From: Streptococcus mitis
GTDB lineage: Bacteria; Bacillota; Bacilli; Lactobacillales; Streptococcaceae
DNA: 64,000 nucleotides
NCBI RefSeq assembly: GCF_013305725.1
Contig: NZ_CP047883.1
Coordinates: 1,653,001-1,717,000 of the forward strand
Direction: 5' to 3'
Shown here: one piece after another, positions 34,278-48,465 of the stretch
Position numbering within the stretch: position 1 is the stretch's first letter
Layout: each line of letters starts with the position of its first letter
Notes under the pieces: model-generated
The model's input: the letters and a program-made list of their open reading frames with translations, nothing else
Told to the model about the DNA's origin: nothing
The model's database searches: none
Program-made: the position numbers and the translations under genes

Positions 34278-37200
34278 TTATTCTTCGTTATCATTTTTAC
34301 GGCGTTTCGCTACTAAACCTAATCCTGTCAGACCAGCTACTGCTCCAAGAAGAGCTGAAGAAACCGAAGCTGATTCACCAGTATTCGGTAACTGCTTACC
34401 TGCCTTAGCTGGAATAGTTTGAGGCTCTGAGTTAATCGAGGTTGAGTGTACCATTGATTCACTCATACTTACCGATAATGACAATGATTGAGATACAGAT
34501 GTACTTACTGAATCTGAAGCAATAATACTATTGATATCTAAGCTATCAAGCGATCTGATCTCTGCAAGCCCCTTACTTGTTACAACAGATGTACTTGCTG
34601 ATGTGCTAGCCGATGTGCTGGCACTTGTTGAAGCCGACGTACTTGCTGACGTGCTTGCCGATGTACTTGCACTTGTCGAAGCTGACGTACTTGCTGATGT
34701 ACTTGCTGATGTGCTTGCACTTGTTGAAGCTGATGTACTTGCTGATGTGCTTGCGCTCGTTGAAGCTGACGTACTTGCCGATGTACTTGCACTTGTTGAA
34801 GCCGACGTACTTGCGCTTGTTGAAGCTGATGTGCTTGCTGACGTGCTTGCGCTCGTTGAAGCTGATGTACTTGCTGATGTGCTGGCACTTGTTGAAGCTG
34901 ACGTACTTGCTGATGTGCTTGCACTTGTCGAAGCGGACGTACTTGCCGACGTGCTTGCCGATGTACTTGCACTTGTTGAAGCTGATGTACTTGCTGATGT
35001 GCTAGCCGATGTACTTGCGCTGGTTGAAGCTGACGTACTTGCTGACGTGCTTGCGCTCGTTGAAGCTGATGTACTTGCTGATGTGCTTGCGCTCGTTGAA
35101 GCTGACGTACTTGCTGACGTGCTTGCACTTGTTGAAGCCGACGTACTTGCTGACGTGCTTGCGCTCGTTGAAGCTGACGTGCTTGCCGATGTACTTGCAC
35201 TTGTCGAAGCTGACGTACTTGCTGATGTACTTGCACTCGTTGAAGCTGATGTACTTGCTGACGTACTTGCGCTTGTTGAAGCCGACGTACTTGCTGATGT
35301 GCTTGCACTTGTTGAAGCGGATGTACTTGCTGATGTGCTAGCCGATGTACTTGCGCTGGTTGAAGCCGACGTACTTGCTGACGTGCTTGCGCTCGTTGAA
35401 GCCGACGTACTTGCTGACGTGCTTGCGCTCGTTGAAGCGGATGTACTTGCTGATGTGCTTGCACTCGTTGAAGCTGATGTACTTGCACTTGTCGAAGCTG
35501 ACGTACTTGCACTTGTTGAAGCCGACGTACTTGCTGATGTGCTAGCCGATGTACTTGCGCTCGTTGAAGCTGATGTACTTGCGCTGGTTGAAGCGGATGT
35601 ACTTGCTGACGTGCTTGCACTTGTTGAAGCCGACGTACTTGCTGACGTGCTTGCGCTCGTTGAAGCTGACGTGCTTGCCGATGTACTTGCACTTGTCGAA
35701 GCTGACGTACTTGCTGATGTACTTGCACTCGTTGAAGCTGATGTACTTGCTGATGTGCTTGCGCTCGTTGAAGCTGACGTGCTTGCCGATGTACTTGCAC
35801 TTGTCGAAGCTGACGTACTTGCTGATGTGCTTGCGCTTGTTGAAGCTGACGTGCTTGCACTTGTTGAAGCTGACGTGCTAGCCGATGTACTTGCGCTCGT
35901 TGAAGCGGATGTACTTGCTGATGTGCTTGCGCTCGTTGAAGCTGACGTACTTGCTGACGTGCTTGCACTTGTTGAAGCCGACGTACTTGCTGACGTGCTT
36001 GCGCTCGTTGAAGCTGACGTGCTTGCCGATGTACTTGCACTTGTCGAAGCTGACGTACTTGCTGATGTACTTGCACTCGTTGAAGCTGATGTACTTGCTG
36101 ATGTGCTTGCGCTCGTTGAAGCTGACGTACTTGCTGACGTGCTTGCACTTGTCGAAGCTGACGTACTTGCTGATGTGCTTGCGCTTGTTGAAGCTGACGT
36201 GCTTGCACTTGTTGAAGCTGACGTGCTAGCCGATGTACTTGCGCTCGTTGAAGCGGATGTACTTGCTGATGTGCTTGCGCTCGTTGAAGCTGACGTACTT
36301 GCTGACGTGCTTGCACTTGTTGAAGCCGACGTACTTGCTGACGTGCTTGCGCTCGTTGAAGCTGACGTGCTTGCCGATGTACTTGCACTTGTCGAAGCTG
36401 ACGTACTTGCTGATGTACTTGCACTCGTTGAAGCTGATGTACTTGCTGACGTACTTGCGCTTGTTGAAGCCGACGTACTTGCTGATGTGCTTGCACTTGT
36501 TGAAGCGGATGTACTTGCTGATGTGCTAGCCGATGTACTTGCGCTGGTTGAAGCCGACGTACTTGCTGACGTGCTTGCGCTCGTTGAAGCAGATGTACTT
36601 GCACTTGTCGAAGCTGACGTACTTGCTGATGTGCTTGCACTTGTTGAAGCTGACGTACTTGCTGACGTGCTTGCACTTGTTGAAGCCGATGTACTTGCTG
36701 ATGTGCTTGCACTTGTTGAAGCCGACGTACTTGCTGATGTGCTAGCCGATGTACTTGCGCTGGTTGAAGCCGACGTACTTGCTGACGTGCTTGCGCTCGT
36801 TGAAGCCGACGTACTTGCTGACGTGCTTGCGCTCGTTGAAGCGGATGTACTTGCTGATGTGCTTGCGCTCGTTGAAGCGGATGTACTTGCTGACGTGCTT
36901 GCACTTGTTGAAGCTGACGTACTTGCTGACGTGCTTGCACTTGTTGAAGCGGACGTACTTGCTGACGTGCTTGCGCTTGTTGAAGCTGACGTGCTTGCCG
37001 ATGTGCTTGCGCTTGTTGAAGCGGACGTACTTGCTGATGTACTTGCACTTGTTGAAGCGGACGTACTTGCTGATGTGCTTGCACTTGTTGAAGCGGACGT
37101 ACTTGCACTTGTTGAAGCTGATGTACTTGCCGATGTGCTTGCACTTGTTGAAGCGGACGTACTTGCCGATGTACTTGCGCTCGTTGAAGCCGACGTACTT

Positions 37201-40200
37201 GCTGACGTGCTTGCACTTGTTGAAGCTGATGTACTTGCCGATGTACTTGCGCTTGTTGAAGCCGACGTACTTGCTGACGTGCTTGCGCTCGTTGAAGCCG
37301 ACGTACTTGCTGACGTGCTTGCGCTCGTTGAAGCGGATGTACTTGCTGATGTGCTTGCGCTCGTTGAAGCGGATGTACTTGCTGACGTGCTTGCACTTGT
37401 TGAAGCTGACGTACTTGCTGATGTGCTTGCACTTGTTGAAACTGACGTACTTGCCGATGTGCTTGCACTTGTTGAAGCCGACGTGCTTGCTGACGTGCTT
37501 GCGCTTGTTGAAGCTGACGTGCTAGCTGATGTGCTTGCACTTGTTGAAGCCGACGTACTTGCACTTGTTGAAGCTGACGTGCTTGCCGATGTGCTTGCGC
37601 TTGTTGAAGCGGACGTACTTGCTGATGTACTTGCACTTGTTGAAGCGGACGTACTTGCTGATGTGCTTGCACTTGTTGAAGCGGACGTACTTGCACTTGT
37701 TGAAGCTGATGTACTTGCCGATGTGCTTGCACTTGTTGAAGCGGACGTACTTGCCGATGTACTTGCGCTCGTTGAAGCCGACGTACTTGCTGACGTGCTT
37801 GCACTTGTTGAAGCTGATGTACTTGCCGATGTACTTGCGCTTGTTGAAGCCGACGTACTTGCTGACGTGCTTGCGCTCGTTGAAGCCGACGTACTTGCTG
37901 ACGTGCTTGCGCTCGTTGAAGCGGATGTACTTGCTGATGTGCTTGCGCTCGTTGAAGCGGATGTACTTGCTGACGTGCTTGCACTTGTTGAAGCTGACGT
38001 ACTTGCTGACGTGCTTGCACTTGTTGAAGCGGACGTACTTGCTGACGTGCTTGCGCTTGTTGAAGCTGACGTGCTTGCCGATGTGCTTGCGCTTGTTGAA
38101 GCGGACGTACTTGCTGATGTACTTGCACTTGTTGAAGCGGACGTACTTGCTGATGTGCTTGCACTTGTTGAAGCGGACGTACTTGCACTTGTTGAAGCTG
38201 ATGTACTTGCCGATGTGCTTGCACTTGTTGAAGCGGACGTACTTGCCGATGTACTTGCGCTCGTTGAAGCCGACGTACTTGCTGACGTGCTTGCACTTGT
38301 TGAAGCTGATGTACTTGCCGATGTACTTGCGCTTGTTGAAGCCGACGTACTTGCTGACGTGCTTGCACTTGTTGAAGCTGATGTACTTGCCGATGTACTT
38401 GCGCTTGTTGAAGCCGACGTACTTGCTGACGTGCTTGCGCTCGTTGAAGCCGACGTACTTGCTGACGTGCTTGCACTTGTTGAAGCGGACGTACTTGCTG
38501 ATGTGCTTGCACTTGTTGAAGCGGATGTACTTGCTGATGTGCTAGCCGATGTACTTGCGCTGGTTGAAGCCGACGTACTTGCTGACGTGCTTGCGCTCGT
38601 TGAAGCAGATGTACTTGCACTTGTCGAAGCTGACGTACTTGCTGATGTGCTTGCACTTGTTGAAGCTGACGTACTTGCTGACGTGCTTGCACTTGTTGAA
38701 GCGGATGTACTTGCTGATGTGCTTGCGCTCGTTGAAGCGGATGTACTTGCTGACGTGCTTGCACTTGTTGAAGCTGACGTACTTGCTGATGTGCTTGCAC
38801 TTGTTGAAACTGACGTACTTGCCGATGTGCTTGCACTTGTTGAAGCCGACGTGCTTGCTGACGTGCTTGCGCTTGTTGAAGCTGACGTGCTAGCTGATGT
38901 GCTTGCACTTGTTGAAGCCGACGTACTTGCACTTGTTGAAGCTGACGTGCTTGCCGATGTGCTTGCGCTTGTTGAAGCGGACGTACTTGCTGATGTGCTT
39001 GCACTCGTTGAAGCTGATGTACTTGCACTTGTCGAAGCTGACGTACTTGCACTTGTTGAAGCCGACGTACTTGCTGATGTGCTAGCCGATGTACTTGCGC
39101 TCGTTGAAGCTGATGTACTTGCGCTGGTTGAAGCGGATGTACTTGCTGACGTGCTTGCACTTGTTGAAGCCGACGTACTTGCTGACGTGCTTGCGCTCGT
39201 TGAAGCTGACGTGCTTGCCGATGTACTTGCACTTGTCGAAGCTGACGTACTTGCTGATGTACTTGCACTCGTTGAAGCTGATGTACTTGCTGATGTGCTT
39301 GCGCTCGTTGAAGCTGACGTGCTTGCCGATGTACTTGCACTTGTCGAAGCTGACGTACTTGCTGATGTGCTTGCGCTTGTTGAAGCTGACGTGCTTGCAC
39401 TTGTTGAAGCTGACGTGCTAGCCGATGTACTTGCGCTCGTTGAAGCGGATGTACTTGCTGATGTGCTTGCGCTCGTTGAAGCTGACGTACTTGCTGACGT
39501 GCTTGCACTTGTTGAAGCCGACGTACTTGCTGACGTGCTTGCGCTCGTTGAAGCTGACGTGCTTGCCGATGTACTTGCACTTGTCGAAGCTGACGTACTT
39601 GCTGATGTACTTGCACTCGTTGAAGCTGATGTACTTGCTGACGTACTTGCGCTTGTTGAAGCCGACGTACTTGCTGATGTGCTTGCACTTGTTGAAGCGG
39701 ATGTACTTGCTGATGTGCTAGCCGATGTACTTGCGCTGGTTGAAGCCGACGTACTTGCTGACGTGCTTGCGCTCGTTGAAGCAGATGTACTTGCACTTGT
39801 CGAAGCTGACGTACTTGCTGATGTGCTTGCACTTGTTGAAGCTGACGTACTTGCTGACGTGCTTGCACTTGTTGAAGCCGATGTACTTGCTGATGTGCTT
39901 GCACTTGTTGAAGCCGACGTACTTGCTGATGTGCTAGCCGATGTACTTGCGCTGGTTGAAGCCGACGTACTTGCTGACGTGCTTGCGCTCGTTGAAGCCG
40001 ACGTACTTGCTGACGTGCTTGCGCTCGTTGAAGCGGATGTACTTGCTGATGTGCTTGCGCTCGTTGAAGCGGATGTACTTGCTGACGTGCTTGCACTTGT
40101 TGAAGCTGACGTACTTGCTGACGTGCTTGCACTTGTTGAAGCTGACGTACTTGCTGACGTGCTTGCGCTCGTTGAAGCGGATGTACTTGCTGATGTGCTT

Positions 40201-43200
40201 GCACTCGTTGAAGCTGATGTACTTGCACTTGTCGAAGCTGACGTACTTGCTGACGTGCTTGCACTTGTTGAAGCTGATGTACTTGCTGATGTGCTAGCCG
40301 ATGTACTTGCGCTGGTTGAAGCCGACGTACTTGCGCTGGTTGAAGCCGACGTACTTGCTGATGTGCTTGCCGATGTGCTTGCACTTGTTGAAGCCGACGT
40401 GCTTGCTGACGTGCTTGCACTTGTTGAAGCTGACGTACTTGCTGATGTGCTTGCACTTGTTGAAGCCGACGTACTTGCTGACGTGCTTGCGCTCGTTGAA
40501 GCGGATGTACTTGCTGATGTGCTTGCACTCGTTGAAGCTGATGTACTTGCACTTGTCGAAGCTGACGTACTTGCTGACGTGCTTGCACTTGTTGAAGCTG
40601 ATGTACTTGCTGATGTGCTAGCCGATGTACTTGCGCTGGTTGAAGCCGACGTACTTGCGCTGGTTGAAGCCGACGTACTTGCTGATGTGCTTGCCGATGT
40701 GCTTGCACTTGTTGAAGCCGACGTGCTTGCTGACGTGCTTGCACTTGTTGAAGCTGATGTACTTGCTGACGTGCTTGCGCTCGTTGAAGCGGATGTACTT
40801 GCACTTGTTGAAGCTGACGTACTTGCTGATGTGCTTGCACTTGTTGAAGCTGACGTACTTGCTGATGTGCTTGCACTTGTTGAAGCTGACGTACTTGCCG
40901 ATGTGCTTGCGCTCGTTGAAGCGGACGTACTTGCTGATGTGCTTGCACTTGTTGAAGCGGACGTACTTGCTGATGTACTTGCACTTGTTGAAGCTGATGT
41001 GCTAGCCGATGTACTTGCGCTTGTTGAAGCTGATGTACTTGCTGACGTGCTTGCACTTGTTGAAGCTGACGTACTTGCCGATGTACTTGCCGACGTGCTT
41101 GCACTCACCGATGCACTTGTTGAAGCTGACTCTGATGCACTTGTTGAAGCTGACTCTGAACGATATTTCTTATCTGAAACAGTTTCATCTTGACTATAGA
41201 CCGTTGGTGCATACGGTTGACTACCAGATGTTACTTTAGCATTATCTTTATAATAAACTGTTGCAACACCATTCTCACTTACGTCAATACTAGAAATACG
41301 ATCCCGACCGTTTGGAGTCACTTTATCATGAGCTTTTCTTATTTCTTCACGAACGTTTTCCTTATCAGTTTCTGTTAAGTGATTTTTATCCTTAACTTCT
41401 GTCAGATTAATAGCAGGCTTCTTAAACAAGTTTTGCAACTGATCTTGCTGAATTCGAATTTCTCCTACATCAACAGTGTTGCCACTAGGATCTGTAGCAG
41501 TGAGCCAACGTCCCCAGGTGTTCCCTGATTTCCACGCAAGATCTTTATTAGCAACCGCATTAATAGTAAATGTGGTCTGGTCATCATTGGTTAAAGTATT
41601 GATAATATTTGTGATAGGACCAGTTCCCCACTCAGGTGTGTTTTCGAAGAAATCTGTCAAATCTTTTCTATTACCAGAAACCTTTAAGGTGACTAACTTA
41701 CCACTGTTATCTTTACCTGTATAAGTAATCTGGATTTTATCTCCAGCATAGAACAAATAGCGACCATTGCCATCTCTCTTAGGCTCTTGACCATTTACTG
41801 TTACAGTATAAGTAATTGTTGGTTTCACACGTTCAGGAGTAATCCTACTTGTCGTTACTTCTGAATTCAGACCAGCAACTGTAGATTTAGCTGTTACATC
41901 ACCTGTCGGAAGAAGACCGTTATTGCCGTCGTAAGCTTTTTTCAGGTCAGTAGGTTCAAATGTCACACTTGTTTCATTGGCCTTAGCTCTCTTCTCGAAC
42001 GTATGGCCTGCTAAAGTCAAGGTTACAAGAGCTCCAGGCGTTACATTCGTAACAACGATCGAACGATTTGGCAAACCACCCGTTTCATTAGTAGAATCTA
42101 CTGAGATAGCTGGTGCTTGTGGATTTACTTTCACAGTAACAGGGACGTTTTGTTTAACTTTGACACCCGTTGAGTCTGCAGGTAACTCTACCTCCACTTG
42201 CTTGGTAAATGTTCCAACTGTCGTAAGTGACGGCGCACCACCAACCCACGTGTATTTAGTGTTTGTTGCGTTAAAATCTGGAGTTCCTGTTACTCTTGTA
42301 ACCGCTTCTTTAGGATTGGCTACAGCTTGTTTATAACCAGCTTCATCCGTCTTGTTTTGCGTGAAAACATAAGAACGGTCTGATTCAAACTTATAGACAT
42401 CATGAACAACATCAACGGTCTTATTTAATTTAACAGCGTCTCCCGCACCCATACGACCAACAGGATAAGTAAAGGTCACTTGGTAGTTGTGTCGACCTGT
42501 TTCTGCTGTGCTAATCGGTGAACTTGAAACAGCCTGACCATTTTTTCTCCAAGTTTTACTAACTCCATCTGGGTAGGCATCGTCTCCTTGCTTAGTCACA
42601 TAATTATGCAAATCTGTTCCATTATGAGGAGCTGTACCTTGGATATCATTCACCGGTCCTTTAGGAGCAATCGTAGCTAAAACCTTATAGTTGACCGTTA
42701 CATCATCGGTTGAACCATCCGAATAGGTAACACGCGCAACGGCACTCTTTGTTCCAGTAGTCGAATTGTTAATCGGATTCAACCATCTAACTGTCGCACC
42801 CGCAGGTAAAGCTTTTCCACCTTCAAGCTGAACAAAATTAGCTGCTTTTCCCAAATCCGCTGGATTTCCCAAATCCGCTACTGTTTCACCCGCATAGGTA
42901 TAAATGGTATCTACTTTAGCTACGGCATTATACTTATCCGTTTGATCCTTGACAACAAACTTGATATAACCTTCGTTATTATCAGTACTATTTGATGTAT
43001 TCTGGTTATCCGTAGTTACGAGTTTACGTTCAGTAAATGCCCCTTTTTGCAGGCTTTTATTTAGGGTGCCTGTCAAAGTAATAGTAGCATTGTCTTGGTT
43101 TGTCGTAGAAGTGATTGGATTTGAACGAGTGACACCAGTAAAGCCACCATAGTTAGAAGCACTACCATCCGCAGCTCCAGATGTCGTCGTCAATTTCAAT

Positions 43201-46190
43201 GAATTGATTTTTCCAGAGTCATCCGTCGCTTTTAGGGTAATATTGACCGGTTCGTTGCGGTATAGATAGATTTCTTTCGTTGCCGGATTGTCATAAGGAA
43301 TAACTAACTTAGGACGTTCGTTGACTGTTACTGACTGTGGAATTGGATCGCTACGCGTACCATCTTTGTAAATAATCGTCGCTGTACCATCGGCCTGAAC
43401 TTCGATATCCTGGATACGGTAAGTTGTCTTATCATTTTTGGCATAGATAGCAGCCTTAACATCATTCTTCTCAGGCTCCGTGAGATTATTCTTATCTACA
43501 ACAGGCGTGAACTCAGGATTTTTTATTGTAAATTCTGATTCATGCTTATAACGCTCATTCAAAGCACGTTGCTTAATAAAGAAGTTTCCTGTATTTGCAT
43601 CCCCAGCTTGAGTATAGTTACCAGCCTTATCTGTTGCGACAGCATTTCTGCGCCAATGATTCCCATTAGCAAATGCCAAATCATCCTTCATGTGTCCTGT
43701 AACAGTAATTCGAGCTGGACTAGATTCAGTCGCAACGATTTCACCATTAGGATCTGACAGGGAAGCAACTGTCCCCGTACCATATTTTGAATCTTTAAAG
43801 ATATTGTCAGCCAAGTCAGAAGCAGGTCTGAAATTGTCTGATTCTGGAACAAGTTTAAATTCTCTCAACTTGCCCTTGTTATCAGTCGCAGTCATATCAA
43901 CTGTGAAATCATCACCCGCATAGATATAGTAATATTTACCTCCTGCTATTGGTCCTGTTTCTGCAGCTAGAGGTTTACCATTACGGGTCACAGTAACGGT
44001 TGTTACTGGAGGTATTTTTTCCTTCTCTAAAGAAGCATTGATGACACTAGTAGAACCGTCACGATAAGTAACCGTGATAGTACCATCTGTTGCAACGTCA
44101 ATTTTAGATTTGGTACCAGGGTAAGATAGCGTAAAGCTACCATCTGGATTGGTCGTTTGACTTGCTTGAGCAATATTTGGAGCAAGATCTCCATTTTTAG
44201 ATAAATCAACTAAGTTTGATTGTTTTCCAACAAAATTATTATAAACTTCCTTAACTTCATCAGGTGTCAAATGGTTCAAATCAGAAACCTGAACAGTATC
44301 GCCACTTTGGATATCATGACGTTCGTTGAAACCTTTAATATAGTAGCCTACATTAGCAGCAGCTTGGGCACCAGAATTATCAGTTCCGACGAAGCGGTAA
44401 ATATATGTTTTTCCTACTTCTGCTGACGCATCGTTTCCACCAATTGTTCCCTGAATTCGAGCTGTTACGTTAGCATTCCCTAAGTATTGATTATTATTAG
44501 GGCCTGCATAACCCACCCCAGGAATTACATTACGATTCTCAATATTAAAATATTTAATACGAACACCAGTACCCTGTAGTCCCACAGGATCATCAATAAC
44601 ATCTCCATTAAAGACTTCCTTATAAGGAGTTACATTAAAACGTAATTTTGAGTTGGTATTCGTTTCCGTTGGAGTTTGTTGTCTATACCCTGTTGGAACA
44701 CTTGCTGATTGAACTGCCGAACCATTCCCTGGAGTATTTTCATAAATAGGAGCAGAACTTACTTGAACCTGCATATTCGCAGTCGCAGTCGGAACATTAT
44801 TATCGTATTTAACCCTTACTACAACTTGTCCCTCTAAGTTCCTGTTTTGGCCATGACGATAACTATAACCCGCCTCTAAACCATGTGTATATGTTTTTTC
44901 CATTGCACTACCGTTAAAGGTCGCACTTTGGACATGTCCACCTTTGCCTACTTCGATTTTTACACCGACATGACTCAAGGCACTATCAGCATGGACATTC
45001 ATGGTGTATGTCGCGATACCAGTAGCCTTATCAAAAGTAGCAGTTGGACTACTTACATTCATACGTCCGTCATTCTGAATAGGAGCCCAACTCGCACGAA
45101 GAGAAGCACCGCGCAACATTGCTTTACCATTACGGGCATCACGCGCGCCTGATTGCGCTCTTAAAACAGCATTGACAATAGAATTACGAGCCAAGGTAGC
45201 TTTTTGCACCACCTCTGTCCAGTCACTCGTTGGATCTGTCAAAGCTTTTTCAATAGCTGTCACTGCTGCATTTACCTTAGTAATTGCAGAATCAGTGTTT
45301 GGCAAACCAGCAGCTTTCGCTAAGTATTCACCTATTTCAGCTGAAAGCTTGGTTAACTTCTTACGATTTTCTTCATTTTGTTTAGCAGAAACTTCGGAAG
45401 TTGCGATGGCTCCAGCAGTAACTCCTACGATACTAGTCATGGTAGAAGTTGATTGAGCAGCACTTGCACTAACCTTCCCATCAATTTCAGTTGCCTTCAG
45501 TAGAGCAGAATCGATTTTAAGGCTAGTTGATTCTGTTGATACAGAAGCATCTCGCTCAGTTGCTGTAGCAGATGTGCTCTGTTCACCTGATAAAGTTGAC
45601 GCTAAAGAAAAACTACTCGGCTTACTTGTTGATTGACTGATACTAGTAGAGGTGCTGACAGATGCACTTGTCGAAGCACTATTAGAAGTACTGGCTGAGG
45701 TACTTGCAGAGGTACTTGCAGAAGTACTCGTCGAAGCACTGGCTGACGAACTCTTAGATACAGATTCTGACATCGAAGCGCTTGCGCTTACAGAAGTAGA
45801 CAAGCTAGCAGAATTTTCCGAGTTACTTAGAGATGTCGTACCCAAAACTACTGTATCATTTGTAACCAAAAGATCTGGATTTTCCAGTGTTTTTTCCACA
45901 GCTACTGTTTCATTTGCAAACACTTTTGTTTGAGTAGCAACAGTACCCCCTAAAACAGCCCCTGTGGCAGCAAGTCCCTTGATAATATCCAGACCTGTAA
46001 TAGACGGATTTACTTTATCCTCTACTACTTCTGTCATGACTTGAGTCGTGTCTACACCACCCCGCAAGACCTTGAACAAACCAAAAAGAGAGGTTGAAGC
46101 TCGCAACCAATGTTTTCCTGATTTGATCAACTTATACCGCGTCACACGGTCCGTTTCTCTATACTTACCTTTCTGACGTCTAAAAAACAT
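34278..46190 (-). CDS. Giant serine-rich repeat adhesin (PsrP/MonX-like SRRP), LPxTG-anchored
   Basis: A 3970-residue surface glycoprotein. The N-terminus has the KxYKxGKxW-type signal ([17 protein letters not shown], residues about 18-34) with a long signal peptide ending near ATQTKVFA. A short Ser-rich region (about 117-220), a helical segment (about 225-370) and a long non-repeat binding region (to about 1670) follow. The binding region has Ig-like blocks recurring near residues 755, 975 and 1479, a Rib-type block, and short LTxxExxxV helices. Residues about 1677-3866 are almost pure ASTS tetrapeptides. The C-terminus has LPNTGES, a hydrophobic stretch and RRKNDNEE. It matches PsrP-type adhesins; S. 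mitis B6 is reported to carry a very large one named MonX, and identity with it is not tested. Confidence 0.93.
34590..41160 (-). repeat. SRR2: about 6.6 kb of 12-bp units encoding ASTS tetrapeptides
   Basis: The basic unit is 12 bp (one Ala-Ser-Thr-Ser tetrapeptide), with a 24/36-bp higher-order pattern in codon choice and larger segmental duplications of several hundred bases. No unit contains a stop in most frames, so long phantom frames appear on both strands. Every insertion or deletion visible keeps the 12-bp register. The region is rich in Ser/Thr acceptor sites for GtfA/GtfB. Copy number in an assembly of this kind of DNA may not be exact. Confidence 0.95.
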
Positions 46191-46281: not shown

Positions 46282-46513
46282 GCATCTTAATATATTTTTA
46301 TATAATACGATGCTTCAAACTAACTTGTATAGATTGTCCCAAATCATCCTTACATATTACACTCATAAAATTACCTAAAACAAAATTCAATCCACTTTTT
46401 ATGCTTTCTTTCTATAAATTCATATTATAAAAATAAAACTATAACAATGCTCATACCATCAACAAACTCACCTTTTCATAATTGTTATGTTGTAATATTT
46501 TCGAATCAAAAAA

Positions 46514-46912
46514 GCTGTGAATCATGACATTCACAGCAGTCACCGATTTTTAAGCCACTACACGGAGTTTGGCAAATCGATTCTATTTACAAACGAAGTT
46601 AGCTAGACCACTCACTAGCAGTTACGACGGAAAAATCCACGAATCAATATCATTCGCGGACTTTTACTAGTGAAGCGTTTAGGTAGACCGCCATAGCGGT
46701 TACCTATTATTAGATTACGACACTGAGTTTTACAAATCAATTCCATTTGTAAAACTCAGTTAGTGAGGCAGGCAGGTAGGCAACTTTCTACCAATCACGA
46801 CGTAAAGTTTTACGAATCGATAATATTCGTAAAACTTTACTAGTGGAGCGCCTAGCCAAGTTCCATAGAAACTTGGCGTTAGTTACTTGATTGTGTAACA
46901 ATCTAAGTAACT
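46514..46912. repeat. Array of related hairpins with conserved GAAT/ATTC-type core
   Basis: Five primary hairpins at 46514-46537, 46567-46594, 46631-46665, 46723-46759 and 46802-46840 share an AAT..ATT core closing a 6-7 base loop that begins with C; four loops are exactly 7 bases. The last two stems are perfect over 15 and 16 bp but differ in sequence with matched changes on both arms. Four are followed by TAGTG-like spacers and a second small hairpin (46602-46619, 46682-46704, 46775-46792, 46855-46877), then TTACGAC or similar. A last 14-bp stem lies at 46881-46912 next to the prfC stop. No T tract follows any stem. Function unknown. Confidence 0.8.
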
Positions 46913-46920
46913 TTGGCGAT

Positions 46921-48465
46921 CTACATCTTCTCTTCCAACTCTACGTCTGGATACTTGTCCGCAAACCAGCGGAGGGCAAAGTCATTTTCAAAGAGAAAGA
47001 CTGGTTGGTCGAAACGGTCTTTAGCCAAGATATTTCGGCTTGACGACATCCGTTCATCCAAGTCCTCAGGCTTGATCCAACGAACGGTCTTTTTACCCAT
47101 TGGGCTCATAACTACTTCAGCGTTGTACTCGCCTTCCATGCGGTGTTTAAAGACTTCAAACTGGAGTTGACCGACAGCTCCCAGCATGTACTCGCCTGTT
47201 TGGTAATTCTTATAAAGCTGGATGGCTCCTTCTTGTACCAGTTGCTCAATCCCCTTATGGAAGGATTTTTGCTTCATGACATTCTTAGCAGAAACTTTCA
47301 TGAAAATTTCAGGTGTAAAGGTTGGTAGGGGTTCAAATTCAAACTTGTTTTTTCCAACTGTTAAAGTGTCCCCAACCTGATAAGTACCGGTATCGTAAAC
47401 ACCGATGATATCACCTGCCACGGCATTGGTCACATTCTCACGACTTTCCGCCATAAACTGAGTGACATTTGAAAGTTTAGCACCCTTACCAGTACGAGGC
47501 AGGTTGACACTCATGCCACGCTCAAATTCCCCTGATACGATACGGACAAAGGCGATACGGTCACGGTGACGAGGATCCATGTTGGCTTGGATTTTAAAGA
47601 CAAATCCTGAGAAATCCTCGTCATAAGGATCCACAATTTCTCCATCTGTTTTCTTGTGCCCATGTGGTTCTGGAGCAAACTTGAGGAAGGTTTCAAGGAA
47701 GGTCTGCACACCAAAGTTTGTCAAAGCTGAACCGAAAAAGACAGGTGTTAATTCTCCAGCAAGGATAGCTTCCTCTGAGAATTCATTTCCAGCTTCATTT
47801 AAAAGTTCAATATCATCTTTGACTTGCTCGTAGAAAGGATTGCTACCAAAAAGCTTGTCCCCATCTTCTAGGCTAGCAAAACGCTCATCCCCCTTGTAAA
47901 GTTCCAAGCGTTGGTTATAGAGGTCATAGAGCCCTTCAAAAGCTTTCCCCATCCCGATTGGCCAGTTCATCGGATAACTCGCAATACCTAGGACTTCTTC
48001 TAGTTCTTGCAATAGGTCCAGTGGCTCACGGCCATCACGGTCCAGCTTGTTCATAAAGGTAAAGACTGGAATCCCACGGTGCTTGACAACCTCAAACAAT
48101 TTCTTGGTTTGGGCCTCGATACCCTTGGCAGAATCGACGACCATGACCGCAGCATCCACCGCCATCAAGGTACGATAAGTATCTTCTGAGAAGTCCTCGT
48201 GCCCTGGGGTGTCTAGGATATTCACGCGCTTACCATCGTAGTCAAACTGCATCACAGATGAAGTCACCGAAATCCCACGTTGTTTCTCGATATCCATCCA
48301 GTCAGACTTGGCAAAAGTCCCTGTTTTCTTTCCTTTTACGGTACCAGCTTCACGAATCTCGCCCCCAAAGTAGAGCAACTGCTCAGTGATGGTTGTTTTC
48401 CCGGCGTCAGGGTGGGAGATGATAGCAAAGGTACGACGTTTCTTAATTTCTTCTTGAATATTCAT
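46921..48465 (-). CDS. prfC: Peptide chain release factor 3
   Basis: A 514-residue GTPase that removes RF1/RF2 from the ribosome after termination. Motifs: G1 [11 protein letters not shown], switch region [10 protein letters not shown]3 [10 protein letters not shown] and G4 [10 protein letters not shown]. Length is normal. The start ATG at 48465 has a weak purine-rich site (AAAGAGAAC). It is divergent from gatC and has an extended -10 (TGGTACAAT, box 48530-48535). Its stop lies nine bases beyond the hairpin array. Confidence 0.97.

Follow-up and report, generated by a model that had tools for sequence, protein, structure and literature searches.

Our analysis of the window (the whole stretch of 64,000 nucleotides of Streptococcus mitis DNA that was analysed) suggests, with a probability that we put at roughly 0.6, that the hairpin array next to prfC belongs to a Streptococcus-specific family of non-coding palindromic DNA elements of the REP/BIME kind, modular in build and variably present. 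The anatomy of the element, the covariation of its stems, its restriction to the genus in the samples searched, its placement at gene ends, the variation in number and order of its modules, and its presence or absence at one site were established directly; as regards present movement, the element is a candidate for mobility. A complete element comprises a three-way junction next to a stop codon (helices P1, P2, and P3) and a hairpin, P4, behind it, with further modules of types A and B in tandem.

The array lies between prfC (identified by a scan as the gene for peptide chain release factor 3) and the SRRP gene (34278-46190), both on the minus strand, and its natural orientation is the minus strand, the sense of prfC. 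In this direction it starts at the prfC stop codon with the leader three-way junction, in whose predicted fold P1 encloses the hairpins P2 and P3; the P4 hairpins follow (46840-46802, 46760-46722, 46667-46629, and a degenerate one at 46600-46562), and a terminator comes last. The features, all on the minus strand, are as follows.

46921-48465, minus strand: prfC, the host gene, whose TAG stop codon (46921-46923) forms the first triplet of the element
46915-46918, minus strand: 5' strand of P1, the helix closing the junction (partner 46849-46852; its four positions are Watson-Crick paired in most unique leaders)
46881-46912, minus strand: P2 hairpin of the leader three-way junction, as predicted by folding with indices converted to coordinates
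46855-46877, minus strand: P3 hairpin of the leader three-way junction (GCCAAGTTTC-TAT-GGAACTTGGC), likewise predicted by folding with converted indices
46844-46852, minus strand: 3' strand of P1 (46849-46852), together with the "guide" triplet CCA (46844-46846), which faces the stop codon
46802-46840, minus strand: P4-1, type B; 16-bp stem, loop ATTATCG, flanks CACTA and GTCGT
46764-46797, minus strand: linker b between P4-1 and P4-2, of the B-to-A spacing class
46722-46760, minus strand: P4-2, type A; 16-bp stem, loop GGAATTG
46682-46704, minus strand: small P3-like hairpin inside linker a (GGTAACCGCTATGGCGGTCTACC on the minus strand), from sequence and fold
46629-46667, minus strand: P4-3, type B; 15 of 16 positions paired with G.U counted, loop GATATTG
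46562-46600, minus strand: P4-4, type A, degenerate; loop AGAATCG retained, YACTA flank gone
46508-46537, minus strand: intrinsic terminator; 9-bp stem, loop of 6, then TTTTTT (46508-46513)

The sequence-only reading had drawn the limits of the array at 46514 and 46912, which is too narrow, as the element reaches the stop codon. The first of the five primary hairpins that it described (46514-46537) is terminator-like, being followed by TTTTTT on the minus strand, and for this hairpin the claimed absence of T tracts is in error. Because both flanking genes run on the minus strand, this hairpin is most likely the prfC terminator rather than a unit of the array; the prfC transcription unit probably ends there. 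The terminator scan found two sites (0.4 expected), the second and weaker one at 46686-46701 on the plus strand, and in that scan every P4 hairpin lacked the T tract of an intrinsic terminator. The stems at 46722-46760 and 46802-46840 lie where they had been placed and are perfect 16-bp stems with 7-nt loops; the length of 16 bp given for the latter holds, while the former had been called 15 bp and is also 16 bp long. The hairpin array is real and far beyond chance: its folding energy compared with dinucleotide shuffles gave z-scores of -9.8 and -10.4 on the two strands with 0 of 100 shuffles as good, scores that cannot tell DNA from RNA, and the core AATNNNATYGATT occurs five times in the window, four of them within the array, for a whole-window expectation of 0.83. 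The SRRP gene on the far side has 3970 codons, mostly of a monotonous SASTSAST repeat, from which an opposite-strand open frame of 2220 codons results.

The P4 consensus reads YACTA, a 16-bp stem, a 7-nt loop NNNATCG, and then GTCGTR. In the first hairpin set (288 hairpins with 129 different stems and at least 12 of 16 pairs) the feet were imposed by the search, and most of the loci behind it came from a pattern that also imposes the loop ATCG. Since feet and loop were thus imposed in the first sets, a circularity, a motif-free recount was made in 30 prfC regions, taken either from DNA-similarity matches or from the window, with hairpins of 16+7+16 nt that have 13 or more pairs; among its 106 unique hairpins, YACTA stood in front of 61 and GTCGT behind 52, the loop ended in ATCG in 56, and the rest were mixed. 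Covariation was assessed in a gapless alignment of 36 diverse copies (35 of 60 selected hairpins plus P4-1 of the window). There, 91.0% of the cells were paired, against 59.7% in shuffles, 193 cells showed double changes, against 55.5, and the covariation score was 0.795, against 0.205 in shuffles and at most 0.197 with one arm slid; pairs showing any double change (13 of 16) were no more numerous than in shuffles (12.4). The stems covary strongly, and across copies they are retained far more often than broken. That structure rather than sequence is maintained, as had been proposed from the window's own stems, is therefore strongly supported by the diverse copies.

P4 hairpins fall into two types, A with an outer A-T pair and B with an outer G-C pair, and the two alternate in 77 of 98 unique neighbour pairs (21 do not). 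The single mismatch pattern seen most often among 70 unique type A stems is a 3x3 internal loop at positions 3-5 of the stem (14 stems); 8 are free of mismatches, and in 24 both arms contain CTnCG. Within 900 nt of prfC, strict hairpins number from 0 to 6 per region (67 regions). Leaders come in several versions that differ in the sequence of P1, all in a single register across 86 unique leaders, and at its four positions P1 is Watson-Crick paired in 79, 80, 82, and 79 of these 86.

By DNA similarity alone, matches were found in 68 of 147 Streptococcus genomes, and a covariance model (E <= 1e-4) matched at least 116 of the 147, which bears out the expectation of further copies in related genomes. 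Across the order, in a scan that doubles as a false-positive control, the model matched 30 of 246 genomes, all of them Streptococcus (1 of 64 genera); the covariance scans over 40 genomes used stricter filters, at the cost of weak matches. A strict pattern run on the genome_contigs collection gave at least 115 stretches, and all 80 listed are titled Streptococcus. Phages and plasmids (blastn) and IMG/VR (exact pattern) gave no match to the element. In the samples searched, the family is restricted to the genus Streptococcus. The genome from which the window comes has four covariance-model matches, among which the degenerate P4-4 is absent; it holds the prfC array, a leader without a hairpin behind argS, a further copy upstream of a metK-like gene (named by reading), and a half-deleted remnant behind grpE. 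A few genomes had many matches (29 in G036, 49 in G098, and 16 in G042), with the hairpin inside composite units; in three such units examined (of the loci L181, L182, L190, and L200-L202) the ends were GATACTTTC...GAAAGTATC or near, and these composites are possibly BOX-type repeats of S. suis.

The 80 listed loci (of at least 115 stretches) divide into 40 behind prfC, 28 behind argS, 1 behind ftsX, and 11 for which the piece of sequence examined holds no usable gene upstream. Of the 69 loci with a gene, 57 have their first strict hairpin 75 to 78 nt past the stop codon, and in the other 12 it begins 48 to 329 nt past it. For 45 further loci, hand-chosen and mostly outside prfC and argS, the covariance model gave 89 matches: of the 26 that lie directly at a gene end, 24 have a host other than prfC and argS, in five cases pyrF, where P1 begins inside the last codons; the other 63 are later array units, units with MITE-like ends, or copies in other contexts. 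The element starts at the stop codon of its gene or within a codon or two of it. Besides prfC and argS, the hosts are pheS, nrdE, obg, grpE, dnaK, parE, ftsX, pyrF, a corA-like gene, and a PTS IIAB gene; the nrdE, parE, PTS IIAB, and corA assignments are below the curated cut-off (nrdE and parE being fragments), dnaK and argS were named by reading of the sequence, and the other hosts were named by scan.

Among 60 prfC regions selected non-randomly (37 of the closest prfC genes without a locus and 23 others), 33 had a covariance match (E <= 0.001). Seven near relatives have no element behind prfC, which in them ends in EKMG, and in lineages farther off an ordinary terminator or palindromes of another kind follow the gene. 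In other Streptococcus genomes (L282-L287) different palindromic repeats likewise start at the prfC stop codon or beside it, for example one hairpin with the ends TAA...TTA (L287) and one with TAG...CTA (L286), and the 3' end of prfC seems to be a hot spot for palindromes. Two accounts of the placement were set aside. Site-specific insertion at GAGAAGATGTRA had come up because prfC and argS share the ending EKM, but element-free lineages (L289-L297) also end prfC in EKM, and other hosts end differently. The idea that the element supplies the stop codon came from pheS (QF* versus QFK*) and from one grpE allele (L435); it was dropped as a general rule, as other grpE genes without the element already end in YN-TAG (L433, L434) and some pheS genes without it in QF* (L342, L343, L356).

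At what level the pairing acts bears on the main rival, a structured 3'-UTR RNA whose junction and hairpins act on the mRNA by way of its stability, its cleavage by RNase III, termination, or the recycling of ribosomes at the stop codon. The element does start at stop codons on the strand of its host gene and in the window precedes a terminator, its folds are very stable, and its loop and feet are conserved, all of which would suit such an RNA. RNA helices tolerate G.U pairs and do not tolerate A.C pairs. The 129 unique P4 stems nevertheless contain 61 G.U against 78 A.C, in a set whose selection counted G.U, and not A.C, as a pair and was thus biased against an A.C excess; the corresponding counts are 10 against 28 in 27 divergent stems, 15 against 26 in 72 unique dispersed copies, and 31 against 40 when pair states are taken once per stem cluster. 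tRNA acceptor stems from 30 loci, the control, gave 41 G.U against 6 A.C (Fisher p about 1e-7; 104 unique tRNAs, about 90 of which were counted, with at least five Watson-Crick pairs). In folds made without G.U, single mismatches in tRNAs were 7 G.U and 0 A.C, whereas 61 arrays, with mismatches counted in each strand's own terms, gave 17 G.U against 12 A.C on the sense strand, a slight lean towards RNA, and 18 against 20 on the antisense strand. The pairing appears to be kept at the DNA level, without a clear RNA signature on either strand. An excess of A.C over G.U on the sense strand of leaders had suggested the antisense as the functional strand; that reading was dropped, as whole arrays are about even, and no strand is claimed.

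Further points against an RNA are that pairs between stop codon and guide triplet lean the opposite way at the second stop position (A.C 36, G.T 1), that some copies are not behind any gene, and that Rfam 15 has no match at gathering score in the window (one in the region, at E 4.5). The options named by the sequence-only reading were a structured RNA, an array for recombination or protein binding, and a decayed family of small mobile hairpins. A family of small hairpin elements, of putative mobility, fits best, and a structured RNA is disfavoured because G.U is not in excess over A.C and Rfam gives no match; with its stop-adjacent start on the sense strand, a 3'-UTR RNA still seems to us the likeliest of the alternatives, at perhaps one chance in five.

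The family of DNA elements also varies in its presence. In the gap between grpE and dnaK, with similar flanks, a full element is present in L170, L171, L389-L397, and L399-L406, a half element in L410, L419, L426, and L427, and a partly deleted one in L412; L398, L414, L419, L428, and L429 have another repeat in front, with masked stretches in L414 and L428, and L407-L409, L411, L413, L416-L418, and others have a short alternative sequence. The repeat in front sits at the grpE stop codon, starts with GATACAAAGCCCG or similar, and ends near TTCGAT; where readable, it stands before the hairpin element or what is left of it. The loci yielded no clean empty site with a target duplication; at grpE, where the change may have been in either direction, the two sides differ beyond the element. 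A Y1 transposase was considered as the partner of the element, IS200-like Y1 genes being present in 93 of the 147 Streptococcus genomes; this candidate was rejected, as 0 of 30 Y1 loci had a P4 in their flanks of up to 1.5 kb and array genomes without a Y1 match exist (G003, G007, G019, G025, G029, G032).

A second alternative is a recombination array of the integron attC kind, or a hot spot for accessory genes, in which folded single strands serve as substrates of a site-specific recombinase and arrays gather modules or neighbour genes such as the SRRP adhesin. The fixed hairpin geometry, the conserved feet, and the head-to-tail modules would fit it. Since attC sites lie behind the cassette genes of integrons, the stop-adjacent element may resemble them by analogy. 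The hosts, in contrast, are core genes rather than cassettes. The gene behind the prfC array is variable; an adhesin-type start (KxxKxGKxW) lies within 1.8 kb in 29 of 85 prfC loci, a point in favour of such an array, and is lacking there in the other 56, a point against it, in a count that includes some genomes fetched twice. A recombination or protein-binding array is a candidate reading, and we consider attC-like recombination or an accessory-gene hot spot rather unlikely.

About as doubtful, in our view, is the more specific proposal that the element is a candidate single-stranded-DNA mobile element that addresses gene ends, its P4 5'-foot triplet (TTA, TCA, CCA, or CTA) pairing with the stop codon. 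In 112 unique contexts, mostly of prfC and argS, in which the triplet just before CTA-P4 is YYA by the search pattern, TGA stops go with TCA (40), CCA (1), and TTA (1), TAA stops with TCA (33), TTA (17), and CCA (2), and TAG stops with CCA (17) and CTA (1). Stop codon and triplet are perfect complements in 58 of the 112, TAA-TCA and TAG-CCA being combinations with one mismatch; regions added later contribute a few TGA-TTA cases (L261, L271, L275). The Fisher p of 1e-4 for this association is no true probability, as the contexts share ancestry, and pairing of the guide triplet with the stop codon, confounded as it is by descent, is suggestive only. Two other partners for the guide triplet were unsupported: perfect complements made up 33 of 192 cases with the 3' triplet of the same element and 29 of 99 with that of the preceding unit. 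In pyrF, the last codons of the gene and the 3' arm of P1 are reverse complements of each other in three versions, GAATAGT (L299), GAATGCG (L300, L302, L303), and GAACTCG (L304), and element-free relatives (L305-L317) end in KQWNS. One further pyrF allele (L301) lacks the inner hairpin, and its two outer arms are joined in a single long palindrome; the gene has lost its stop codon, and its frame enters the element. The least probable alternative, that the covariation is purely mutational, with template switching (quasipalindrome correction) preserving inverted repeats that have no function, could draw on the three versions of the pyrF arms, on the collapse of L301 to a single long palindrome with removal of the stop codon, and on the lack of a G.U preference, but it is very unlikely given that the loop and both feet are conserved though unpaired and that type A keeps an internal loop (14 of 70 unique stems) which such correction should erase.

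The ends of IS200/IS605 elements and of REPINs mobilised by RAYTs carry a hairpin with a short 5' foot facing a nearby target triplet (TTAC or GTAA). The element described here may be likened to them, having a hairpin and a short 5' foot able to face a nearby triplet; in contrast to them, it has no linked Y1 transposase, neither in the flanks of the 30 Y1 loci nor, as a REPIN would have with its RAYT, by joint occurrence in every array genome, and its foot does not covary with its own 3' end. In HUH transposition a guide likewise base-pairs; here the hairpin is different and the enzyme putative. REP/BIME elements, as the main text of Di Nocera et al. 2013 (PMC3733652) describes them, are palindromes tagged GTAG or CGTC with stems of 5 to 13 or 8 to 9 bp, and the CGTC families are likewise without a known transposase; "Firmicutes" is absent from that main text, and "Streptococcus" occurs in it twice. 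Compared with this description, the elements are alike in being short extragenic palindromes with an unpaired conserved foot that stand between genes, different types side by side; in the copies studied here, the palindromes have no RNA signature, are extragenic, and form clusters of mixed type. They differ from the REP/BIME elements so described in their 16-bp stems, 7-nt loops, additional three-way junction, and start at a stop codon, in being arranged head-to-tail and not mainly head-to-head, and in the few copies in the window's genome. The GTAG/CGTC tags themselves were not found as such: the commonest feet are YACTA and GTCGT, and CGTC occurs only where the stem ends in C.

BOX elements, built of A-B-C modules, occupy 125 places in a single genome (Croucher et al. 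2011, PMC3049150); the words "prfC," "argS," and "hairpin" are absent from the main text of that paper. With BOX, RUP, and SPRITE, as described there, the family shares its nature of streptococcal, intergenic, modular repeats with strong folds and, with BOX, a variable module number, while its copy number, four model matches in the window's genome, differs from that described for BOX. The table of candidate structured motifs in Weinberg et al. 2010 (PMC2864571) includes two that are restricted to Streptococcus, "sanguinis-hairpin" and "ScRE," for which it gives no Rfam entry; one or the other might be an earlier record of this hairpin family. No description of the family was found in the open literature, a body that comes mostly without subscription journals and supplements (it included PMC3049150, PMC3733652, PMC1590033, PMC2267715, and PMC2864571).

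For the REP/BIME-like family that we favour, we propose that the pairing matters in DNA, as the absent RNA signature would suggest. When the DNA becomes single-stranded, its hairpins may fold and be recognised by a putative trans-acting enzyme, which would copy or move the element as is the case for REP/BIME, and template switching at the palindromes together with homologous exchange may shuffle and repair the modules. We count against this reading that neither a transposase, Y1 included, nor a recombinase could be tied to the element, that no clean empty site turned up, that 63 of the 89 matches in the chosen loci are not directly at a gene end, and that the copies in the window's genome are few (4), unlike typical REPs. 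At prfC, argS, and the other hosts, the element is probably a tolerated passenger between stop codon and terminator and no regulator; its long persistence at prfC and argS across the Mitis group could mean function.

Our results add a widespread family of structured DNA, of which we found no earlier description in the literature searched, to a much-studied genus that includes the pneumococcus. The family offers a test case for distinguishing covariation at the DNA level from that at the RNA level by G.U versus A.C, a check that motif-discovery pipelines could use before naming a conserved structure an RNA. If true, the targeting of stop codons would be a new way for small elements to occupy gene ends while leaving the genes unbroken.
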